DNA from: Saliniradius amylolyticus
GTDB lineage: Bacteria; Pseudomonadota; Gammaproteobacteria; Enterobacterales; Alteromonadaceae
Length of the DNA: 64,000 bases
Assembly: GCF_003143555.1 (NCBI RefSeq)
Contig: NZ_CP029347.1
Location: forward strand, 3,150,947-3,214,946
Direction of reading: 5' to 3'
The notes beneath the pieces were generated by a model. That model saw nothing but the letters and a program-made list of their open reading frames with translations, did not search any database and was not told the origin of the DNA. Positions 50,738-56,819 of this stretch are shown in pieces; position 1 is the first letter of the stretch, and each line of letters begins with the position of its first letter. The position numbers were made by a program, and so were the translations under genes.

Positions 50738-51049
50738 TCAGGCGTCAGTGACCTCGGTGAAATGTTGTAACAGATTGTGGGCCGGTTGCCACTGCTTGGT
50801 TGGGGGCGGTAGCTCTATTAATAAATGCTGATGAGGTGAGCGATTTTCAAGCACAGAGGCTAACTCATCAATATAGGCTACAGGGGTAAGGGGCATCACA
50901 TGCCAGTAGATATGCTCGTTCACTGCGAATCGTCGCGGAGTCAGGGACAGTACTTTTAACGTCCGGAGATCAGTTAGTTCTGCAACCTTGTCTTTTAGTT
51001 GCGAGGCTTGCGACAGATGAATGTTTTCCAAAATCATAGTGGGGTTCAT
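50738..51049 (-). CDS. Uncharacterised protein, last gene of the dab operon
   Basis: A 103-residue soluble protein preceded by AAGGTG, 15 bases after the DUF6671 gene. It has a mixed alpha/beta pattern: a helix SQASQLKDKVAELTDLRTLK, strands VLSLTPRRFAV and EHIYWHVMPLTPV, then a helical part and HQHLLIELPPP. No family was recognised and it contains no cysteine. Its position suggests that it acts with DabAB, CysD and the DUF6671 protein. A 47-base gap separates it from mioC. Confidence 0.65.
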   Translation of the reverse strand: MNPTMILENIHLSQASQLKDKVAELTDLRTLKVLSLTPRRFAVNEHIYWHVMPLTPVAYIDELASVLENRSPHQHLLIELPPPTKQWQPAHNLLQHFTEVTDA

Positions 51050-51064
51050 AATTCACCTTTGGCT

Positions 51065-55253: not shown

Positions 55254-56819
55254 CTAGCAACACTCCTTTTTTGGGTCAGTAGTCACGGTGGAGGTCGTTC
55301 CGTCAGTAAACTTAATCGGCCACCATTTAAGGGTTTGTCGGGTAAACCATTCATCGAGGTACAAACCGGCATACAGCGGGGGATAGAGTTTTCGACTGAG
55401 CAAGGCATCCGGCCAAAGCCGCAGTGAGGCAAACAGTCCGTAAAACAGCGCGAAAGCCACCAGCACAAAGCCAGTTTCGAGTATGCCGTTTTCATGCAAC
55501 GGGAACAGGTTAGCGGTAGTGACGGCAAACAGGTTGTGCCACAGGGCGTACACGGCCATGGTTAAAGCGCCCATCAACAGGGCCGGCAGTAAGGTGGTTA
55601 GGGAGATAAACCGCTGGGCTTCAGCCAGAAACACGCTAATGGCGAAAGCAACAATAATGGTGACCAATATCAGCTTGAATGACAAAGGCAACCAGAGGTA
55701 GGCCAGAGTCAAACTGAGACCAACTACGGCGACGGGAACCAACAGCCACAACAAGGCGCGATACTGACGCCTTGGAGAGCGTAACTCATAGGCTATTTGG
55801 GTGTTGACTGTTTCACCGGCATTGAGGAAGTTATAAGCCTTGTAACAGGAGTGGGCGATTAGGTGTAGTAAGGCCAACTCGTAAAGTCCGAGCGCCACTT
55901 CCATCAGCATAAATCCCATCTGGGCGCAGGTAGACCAGGCCAGCATGACCTTGATGCTAATGCGTGTCATCATGATAAGGCTTGCGGTTAATGCGGTTAA
56001 TGTGCCCACCACCAACAACAGCCACTGAGCCGCAGGTGCCATGGCAAAGCCATCAGCAAAGCGCATCATTAGAAAACCACCGATATTTACGATGCCAGCG
56101 TGCAATAAGGCAGAAACGGGGGTCGGCGCTTCCATCACCTGCAGCAACCAACCATGAAAAGGCAGTTGGGCACATTTTAAGATGGCTGCAAAGACCATCA
56201 GGACCATGGCGCTCTCGGCGCTGATGGACAATGTTTCACGGGAAACATAAGTGGTTAATATTGCGTCAATTTTAAAGCTTTGGGTGTCCAGATAAATCAA
56301 TACAAAGGCGATGAACAAGCTAATATCGGCAAAGCGACTGAGGATAAAACGCTTATGGGCCGCCAACTGTGCTTTAGGGCGCTCAGGATAAAACAGCAGC
56401 AATTTATGCAAACACAGGCTGGTTAGTACCCAAGCCACAAAGCTGACAACCAGATGATTACTGATCACCAGGGTACTGATGCTGGTCAGTGTTAGTAAGA
56501 ACCAGCGTTGAAAAAAATCCTGGCGTTGTTCGCCGTCAAGATAATGCCGCGAGAAGCCTAAGATCATCAAACCGATAAAGGTGATGAGCAACAGCATACT
56601 CAGGCTGAGCGCATCCAGCAGTACCCAGGTTGATGATTTTACACCCCAGTTGGCTATACCCACTGAACAAGCCCCGATTAGTAGGCCGCCAGCGGCGATG
56701 ATCAGGGTTATTCTCCAGCGGTGGGCGAGTGTGGGAATCACCGAATGCGTTACGGCCCATCCCCAAAGGAGGTAGGCCAGCGGGATACAGAGAACCAAGT
56801 TTGCCAGAGTCGCTAACAC
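55254..56819 (-). CDS. dabB: DabB, membrane subunit of the inorganic carbon transporter (NuoL/MrpA-like)
   Basis: A 521-residue membrane protein with about 13 helices, related to the antiporter-like NuoL/MrpA subunits of complex I. The core segment is PTPVSALLHAGIVNIGGFLMMR, and the antiporter lysine helices are nearby. In DAB systems it conducts H+ or Na+ to drive DabA. It starts with GTG at 56819 with a weak ribosome site, the first gene of a five-gene run, and is divergent from a LysR gene. A parS-like 16-mer lies inside it at 56232. Confidence 0.93.
   Translation of the reverse strand: MLATLANLVLCIPLAYLLWGWAVTHSVIPTLAHRWRITLIIAAGGLLIGACSVGIANWGVKSSTWVLLDALSLSMLLLITFIGLMILGFSRHYLDGEQRQDFFQRWFLLTLTSISTLVISNHLVVSFVAWVLTSLCLHKLLLFYPERPKAQLAAHKRFILSRFADISLFIAFVLIYLDTQSFKIDAILTTYVSRETLSISAESAMVLMVFAAILKCAQLPFHGWLLQVMEAPTPVSALLHAGIVNIGGFLMMRFADGFAMAPAAQWLLLVVGTLTALTASLIMMTRISIKVMLAWSTCAQMGFMLMEVALGLYELALLHLIAHSCYKAYNFLNAGETVNTQIAYELRSPRRQYRALLWLLVPVAVVGLSLTLAYLWLPLSFKLILVTIIVAFAISVFLAEAQRFISLTTLLPALLMGALTMAVYALWHNLFAVTTANLFPLHENGILETGFVLVAFALFYGLFASLRLWPDALLSRKLYPPLYAGLYLDEWFTRQTLKWWPIKFTDGTTSTVTTDPKKECC
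56232..56247. other. parS-like centromere site within dabB
   Basis: TGTTTCACGGGAAACA matches the parS consensus TGTTTCACGTGAAACA at 15 of 16 positions. It lies about 7.5 kb from oriC, and parA/parB are in the same window. A second site at 61952 shares the same 15 bases in inverse orientation. Confidence 0.62.

Follow-up and report, generated by a model that had tools for sequence, protein, structure and literature searches.

The closest described relative of the locus considered here is the DAB inorganic-carbon pump (also DAC or MpsAB), a two-subunit system described as hydrating CO2 to bicarbonate in one direction, driven by an ion gradient. In the part of PMC13144422 drawn on here, the zinc ligands and the Asp-Arg dyad of one catalytic subunit, DabA2, are given as C351, D353, R355, H524, and C539. 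CysD and the ITPase fold, which also enter the argument below, are likewise already known. We examined a stretch of 64,000 nucleotides from Saliniradius amylolyticus (NZ_CP029347.1, positions 3,150,947 to 3,214,946; hereafter, the window), in which a predicted DAB operon also carries genes for a second CysD paralogue (cysD2) and for a protein of the family DUF6671. In many bacteria, DUF6671 genes adjoin bicarbonate-uptake genes of three unrelated families, which makes it likely that DUF6671 assists bicarbonate uptake. Our best explanation for the locus as a whole is more tentative, and we hold it at somewhat under an even chance: the operon would serve at low CO2 under a LysR switch, with DUF6671 acting on a nucleotide as an accessory of bicarbonate uptake and CysD2 as its diverged, adenylate-forming partner.

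A DAB operon with two added genes

All of the operon genes lie on the minus strand. dabB (55254-56819; 521 aa, GTG start) encodes the membrane subunit and matches PF00361/PF00662 and NF006029 (501.6 bits against a cut-off of 380), and the adjacent dabA (52821-55253; 810 aa), the only DabA found by profile search in this genome of one 3,214,946-base contig, encodes the catalytic subunit and matches PF10070 (886.2 bits; cut-off 25). They are followed, head to tail, by cysD2 (51895-52824; 309 aa), the DUF6671 gene (51065-51895; 276 aa; PF20376, 121.9 bits against a cut-off of 23.8), and an open reading frame (ORF) of 103 residues (50738-51049). Successive junctions are 0, -4, -1, and +15 bases, and dabA lies 925 bases from DUF6671. 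This layout had been described in an earlier sequence-only reading of the window, and the ORF map confirmed it; we infer that the five genes are cotranscribed.

Residues C336, D338, R340, H502, and C517 of the window DabA fit the zinc-site pattern of DabA2 by motif, without structural alignment, with CIDVR at 336-340, H502 leading to C517, and spacings (2, 2, and 15) equal to those of DabA2. The operon is predicted from its sequence to encode a DabAB CO2-to-bicarbonate pump. It shares with the described systems both subunits, the gene order, the zinc-site motif pattern, and a divergent lysR gene, and differs from them in that cysD2 and DUF6671 are tightly joined to it, two genes that those parts of the DAB literature drawn on here do not list among DAB components. 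The gene order of the window operon is found in other genomes and on plasmids, which speaks against a chance arrangement, and the recurring unit is dabB-dabA-(cysD)-DUF6671 plus the divergent lysR.

DUF6671 genes beside unrelated bicarbonate importers

A scan of named genomes with a 13-sequence DUF6671 alignment yielded at least 564 relatives, from which the 80 most window-like were kept, so that the sample is biased toward rows resembling the window DUF6671, near-duplicates among them. Neighbors were counted as BLAST-labelled ORFs, with Pfam applied to one or a few representatives per cluster. A DAB, SbtA/B, or SulP gene lay within 500 bases of DUF6671 at 51 of the 80 loci, within 3 kb at 58, and within 8 kb at 61. 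Within 3 kb, dab genes occurred at 32 loci, Sbt genes at 22, and SulP genes at six. The same interval held Sua5 (threonylcarbamoyl-AMP synthase) and IlvD at 10 loci each, a PyrC-type amidohydrolase at eight, isocitrate dehydrogenase at six, CysD at five, beta-carbonic anhydrase, RuBisCO-type, and CaxA-type proteins at three each, and PurK/PurE at two. None of these genes occurred in 38 canonical CysD loci used as a control (172 kb, mostly short flanks, some of them the same gene). Pfam analysis of ten DUF6671 neighbors, eight of them from loci free of uptake genes, revealed no further importer.

Plasmids gave a similar picture. DUF6671 was present in 12 of 72,556 plasmid records (a set that may partly overlap the named genomes), and a dab or SbtA gene lay within 4 kb of it on 10 of the 12. 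Specifically, the order was dabB-dabA-DUF6671 on three and dabB-dabA-cysD-DUF6671 on two (Mesorhizobium); dab genes were nearby on two more, one of which has only an annotated proton-conducting transporter subunit, and SbtA adjoined DUF6671 on three. The remaining two plasmids carry pyrC and ilvD nearby, one of them together with a TerC gene and, about 5 kb off, a canonical CysD with a split cysN behind it. TerC-family genes recur near plasmid DUF6671 (L213, L214, and L219), with a RaiA gene also at L213 and universal-stress-protein genes at L212 and L214. On three rhizobial plasmids, DUF6671 is followed by ORFs of 72-77 residues that look similar when compared by eye (L216, 4856-5074; L218, 4866-5099; L220, 4928-5161). 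No DUF6671 match was found in phages.

Closer to S. amylolyticus, DUF6671 is sparse. Among 295 genomes of the order, eight carry DUF6671 and 20 carry DabA; in the six that carry both, DUF6671 and dabA are never more than 3 kb apart, and in one of them (G037) DUF6671 is a fragment. In that genome, a C-terminal piece of DUF6671, perhaps a remnant, sits between dabA and sua5 (L047, 9201-9452). Besides the window, dabB-dabA-cysD-DUF6671 occurs in G057 and G292 (the cysD of the latter is frame-broken), and in G127 a CysD gene directly adjoins a partial dabA at the end of a contig. In G282, DUF6671 follows a window-type CysD with no dab gene, and in G272 neither dab nor CysD was seen near it. Together with the plasmids, the order survey thus upheld the expectation of the sequence-only reading that DUF6671 and cysD would be associated with dabA in other genomes. 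Sua5, a bicarbonate user, is encoded next after dabA or DUF6671 at eight of the 18 dab loci fetched from the order (L041-L060); it follows dabA at L050, L051, L053, and L055, and the other four are L041, L044, L045, and L047. The window genome itself gave no Sua5_C match.

Across 339 genomes of the phylum, DUF6671 exceeded the cut-off in five, DabA in 59, and SbtA in 38 (G452, at 20.8 bits, fell below the DUF6671 cut-off and was left out). Three of the five DUF6671 genes are linked to uptake genes: that of the window; that of G434, which has SbtA 16 bases upstream; and that of G531, where a convergent dabA lies about 1.1 kb away and CysD and Sua5 belong to the same cluster.

A predicted ITPase-like domain with a cysteine tail

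Residues 6-221 of the DUF6671 protein were modelled as an ITPase/YjjX-like domain (structure model and fold matches), and eight cysteines, conserved over 98 sequences, fall within residues 215-274, a tail that likely holds zinc. On the strength of the model, DUF6671 is predicted to share the fold of the ITPase/HAM1/YjjX/Maf superfamily, and the polar residues of its ITPase-like pocket are nearly invariant. The protein is therefore probably more than the zinc-ribbon protein described in the sequence-only reading. From the nucleotide pyrophosphatases of the superfamily, DUF6671 differs in its extra eight-cysteine tail and in its lack of detected sequence kinship, which neither Pfam, nor hhalign, nor a profile search of PDB sequences confirmed; the last gave weak matches (E >=0.068), nearly all of them to RNA polymerase or ribosomal proteins, in their cysteine-rich tails.

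A parallel in working, though not in descent, is offered by SbtB, the PII-like regulator of SbtA. SbtB handles adenine nucleotides and, as with DUF6671, is a small protein whose gene neighbors that of a bicarbonate transporter. The two belong to different families (P-II versus PF20376), and some loci hold both.

A CysD type without a neighboring CysN

CysD2 passes the curated CysD cut-off (TIGR02039; 463.9 bits against 396.6), aligns over its full length with the CysD, or small subunit, of the sulfate adenylyltransferase CysDN (1zun chain A), and keeps the PP-loop SIGKDS and GGARRDEEKSRAKER. It differs from that CysD in the replacements K69 to E, H111 to Y, and V32 to C, in a one-residue insertion, and in having no adjacent cysN, none being present in the window operon run. 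A second cysD beside a cysN, which the sequence-only reading had considered, is indeed present elsewhere in the genome. It is 63% identical to CysD2 and opens a cysD-cysC-cysQ-cysN run (CysN identified by profile, cysC and cysQ from a reading of their ORFs), and with it sits the only CysN over the cut-off in a profile search of this genome (2075431-2076648, G000); the window CysD is thus an additional copy without an adjacent CysN. The same holds for all six of the genomes with a CysD linked to dab or DUF6671 (11 examined), in which the canonical CysD and the only over-cut-off CysN lie elsewhere.

Linked CysDs depart from canonical ones at particular positions. The 34 canonical CysDs share 165 invariant columns, and 121 of these, the PP-loop among them, are unchanged in every linked CysD. 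The linked type has C32, F34, T42, E69, Y111, and a one-residue insertion, and all five residues are present in CysD2; residue 69, within DT-x-W-K-F, is Lys in 34/34 canonical CysDs and Glu in CysD2. These counts left out two fragments (L088, Lysobacterales; L128, Methylobacter) and one outlying canonical row (L191), and the frame-broken CysD of G292 was counted only over its open part. T42, E69, and Y111 are shared by the two CysDs of the Mesorhizobium plasmids, bringing the tally to 8/8 CysN-less CysDs linked to dab or DUF6671. At four methanotroph loci (L104, L114, L128, and L140), by comparison, DUF6671 is accompanied by an ordinary-looking CysD, with SulP at three, beta-carbonic anhydrase at three, and CysN at two. 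K69 and H111 are found in three methanotroph CysDs beside DUF6671 and in the plasmid CysD of P. hygromyciniae, which is followed by a cysN broken across two frames and by cysC. Searches by tblastn recovered cysN in 36/36 canonical stretches, at two of the methanotroph loci, and, in its split form, after the CysD of P. hygromyciniae; at eight linked loci (one only a cysD fragment), they recovered no cysN, cysC, cysQ, or SLT. In these sequences, the CysD signature tracks the absence of CysN, not the presence of DUF6671, with one exception, L114.

C32 and E69 occur together in 119 of the best 120 of 7,994 database hits, chosen by similarity, and the source name of hits with both residues, where shown, is sulfate adenylyltransferase. 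In a quick tree, the six linked CysDs from Gammaproteobacteria group together (SH-aLRT 97), and the L088 fragment is placed apart from the other linked rows. Because CysD2 keeps the ATP-binding PP-loop and yet differs from CysN-coupled CysDs at fixed positions, it likely works free of CysN or makes a different adenylate.

One further idea arose because several DUF6671 neighbors use a CO2-carboxylated active-site lysine and CysD2 has Lys69 replaced by Glu, namely, that the linked enzymes are CO2-independent replacements that escape the need for a carbamyl-lysine. PyrC-type ORFs keep the lysine at nine of ten loci examined (the search pattern was unmatched at L118), and 15 of the 16 IlvD ORFs that are linked have the CDK motif, the other one belonging to a split gene. 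The carboxylated-lysine motif is thus mostly retained in IlvD and PyrC, which therefore give no sign of being such replacements; the idea is unsupported for them and, for CysD2, only a thought.

The divergent LysR and the lysR-dabB gap

Divergent from dabB lies a LysR-type regulator gene (56919-57836, plus strand), whose product has NhaR as its nearest NCBIfam model, below the cut-off (146.7 bits against 219). Directly adjoining lysR and dabB genes are the rule in the order, being present at 16 of the 18 dab loci fetched from it. The element GTTC-N10-AA[CT] occurs in 16 of 17 lysR-dabB gaps, extended by up to 60 bases for this count, against 0.46 expected from shuffles; it was spotted and tallied on the same gaps, so the count is no independent test. 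The sole gap lacking it (L044) has only 18 bases because the called ORFs overlap. In 14 of the 16 gaps with the element, the start of an AAAATA[TG]A sequence precedes its start by 24 bases. In the window, the putative regulator site (56877-56917, plus strand) comprises AAAATATA at 56877-56884 and GTTC-N10-AAC at 56901-56917. No copy of the element was found ahead of cysD2 in L046, between lysR and DUF6671 in L178, or within a stretch of L177. A TTGC-type dyad in the lysR-dabB gap was dropped (3/17 gaps versus 1.4 expected). From the divergence and the shared motif, we infer that LysR switches the operon, and the corresponding proposal of the sequence-only reading gains some support from the motif.

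Downstream end of the operon

The 103-residue ORF is a near-orphan, with neither a Pfam nor an NCBIfam match at E 0.1 and two related proteins found, one of which is itself. With a single relative besides itself, it was rejected as a fifth component and probably lies outside the recurring unit, and the five-part system proposed in the sequence-only reading is not supported. A boundary after five genes is in any case arbitrary, because genes for a MioC-like flavodoxin (50214-50732), DnaT (49570-50217), and a DnaC/IstB-like ATPase (48774-49628), identified by family scans and the ORF map, continue the minus-strand run past 50738. These mioC, dnaT, and dnaC-like genes, with an mnmG-like gene recognized from its ORF, adjoin the dab operon over 46365-50732; relatives of mnmG and mioC also lie close to a dab operon at L053 (1093-3993), which comes from a different family of the order.

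Weighing the explanations

How might the parts work together? LysR would turn the operon on when inorganic carbon is short, as its divergence and the shared motif suggest, and DabAB, in which the zinc-site residues are present, would then hydrate CO2 to bicarbonate as described for the family. DUF6671, whose association with unrelated bicarbonate importers is observed and whose activity is suggested by its fold, would be an accessory enzyme or sensor common to them, binding or cleaving a nucleotide and so tuning bicarbonate supply. CysD2 would make an adenylate without CysN, or a different adenylate, and DUF6671 would turn over or read the product.

Several results weigh against this explanation. 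With regard to the nucleotide-acting role, the best Foldseek E-value for the DUF6671 model was 1.4e-3, with none <=0.001; hhalign against single YjjX and RdgB sequences of E. coli gave probabilities of 0.2 and 2.0; and no ITPase-type Pfam match appeared at E 0.1. With regard to the association, 19 of the 80 named-genome loci have no uptake gene near DUF6671 (some of those contigs end close by), two of the five phylum DUF6671 genes (G506 and G423) are not linked to dabA or SbtA, and cysD lies within 3 kb at only 5/80 loci. Further, methanotroph DUF6671 sits with ordinary-looking CysDs, so a pairing of CysD with DUF6671 is not confined to the CysN-less type, and one of these loci, L114, breaks the signature rule, having K69 and yet no CysN match in 16.8 kb. 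A larger quick tree did not recover the linked CysDs as a single clade: database rows intermingle with them, and the Mesorhizobium pair falls far off. CysD2 itself, being over the CysD cut-off, could still use CysN made elsewhere. Lastly, the lysR-dabB gaps are related sequences, and the motif shuffles take no account of relatedness.

The main rival is that spare copies of CO2- or bicarbonate-dependent enzymes gather near importers, in which case CysD2 would be a spare isoenzyme borrowing CysN in trans and DUF6671 one more such enzyme, not a regulator. We consider this doubtful, though deserving of real weight, given that the neighbors of DUF6671 include Sua5, a PyrC-type amidohydrolase, IlvD, PurK/PurE, RuBisCO-type proteins, and acyl-CoA carboxylase, that CysN is encoded in each of the six CysD2 genomes, and that CysD2 aligns end to end with 1zun_A. 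In the portions of the literature drawn on here, TsaC uses bicarbonate (PMC11648230), dihydroorotase has a carbamylated lysine, and IlvD/EDD enzymes have a carboxylated lysine (PMC9314677), all in keeping with such a theme. Isocitrate dehydrogenase, TerC, and RaiA, however, are off it, and CysD2 departs from canonical CysDs at otherwise fixed positions, as an ordinary spare copy need not. Sulfate activation, moreover, is not known to need CO2.

Returning to DUF6671 as an accessory of uptake, a narrower form of that explanation would make CysD2 and DUF6671 a CysN-free adenylate switch, with CysD2 adenylylating an oxyanion (sulfate or (bi)carbonate) and DUF6671 reading or cleaving the product to gate the importer; DUF6671 would then be the first accessory shared by DAB, SbtA, and SulP. 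In this specific form, the proposal is unlikely.

A metabolic link, quite unlikely in our estimation, would have low CO2 or high pH limit both bicarbonate supply and sulfate activation, so that the two are co-induced and CysD2 adds capacity for adenosine phosphosulfate (APS), or a signal made of APS or 3'-phosphoadenosine 5'-phosphosulfate (PAPS). The four methanotroph loci, with their SulP, beta-carbonic anhydrase, and cysN genes, are what such a link would resemble, and PAPS is a proposed signal in Vibrio vulnificus in the part of PMC6113621 consulted. The linked loci point the other way, having no match to cysN, cysC, cysQ, or an SLT-type transporter (cysH was not searched for) and, within the order, no SulP label, and K69 is replaced in the CysN-less CysD type. 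As the sequence-only reading put it, with bicarbonate supply tied to sulfate activation, the link is not supported by the 80 loci; since few DUF6671 loci have cysD, it is at most an add-on. That the genes merely hitch-hike together by horizontal transfer, with no shared function, would suit the patchiness of DUF6671 (8/295 genomes of the order) and its presence on plasmids but is improbable, because the linkage covers three unrelated importer families and several phyla, with junctions that are often a few bases or overlaps, and because the dabB-dabA-cysD-DUF6671 order recurs with distant CysDs.

Implications for bicarbonate uptake

In the literature searched, from which subscription journals were mostly absent, we found no word beginning with DUF6671, no text with both DabA and cysD, and nothing on a shared accessory or on dab-operon CysDs of the CysN-less type. 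Bicarbonate uptake through DAB, SbtA, and SulP has a central place in CO2-concentrating mechanisms and in attempts at transplanting them. The analysis also exposes a subfamily named as CysD that may not behave as the textbook enzyme, and it makes the role of DUF6671 in bicarbonate uptake a directly testable question. A partner gene common to unrelated importers would point to a shared step of control or maintenance.
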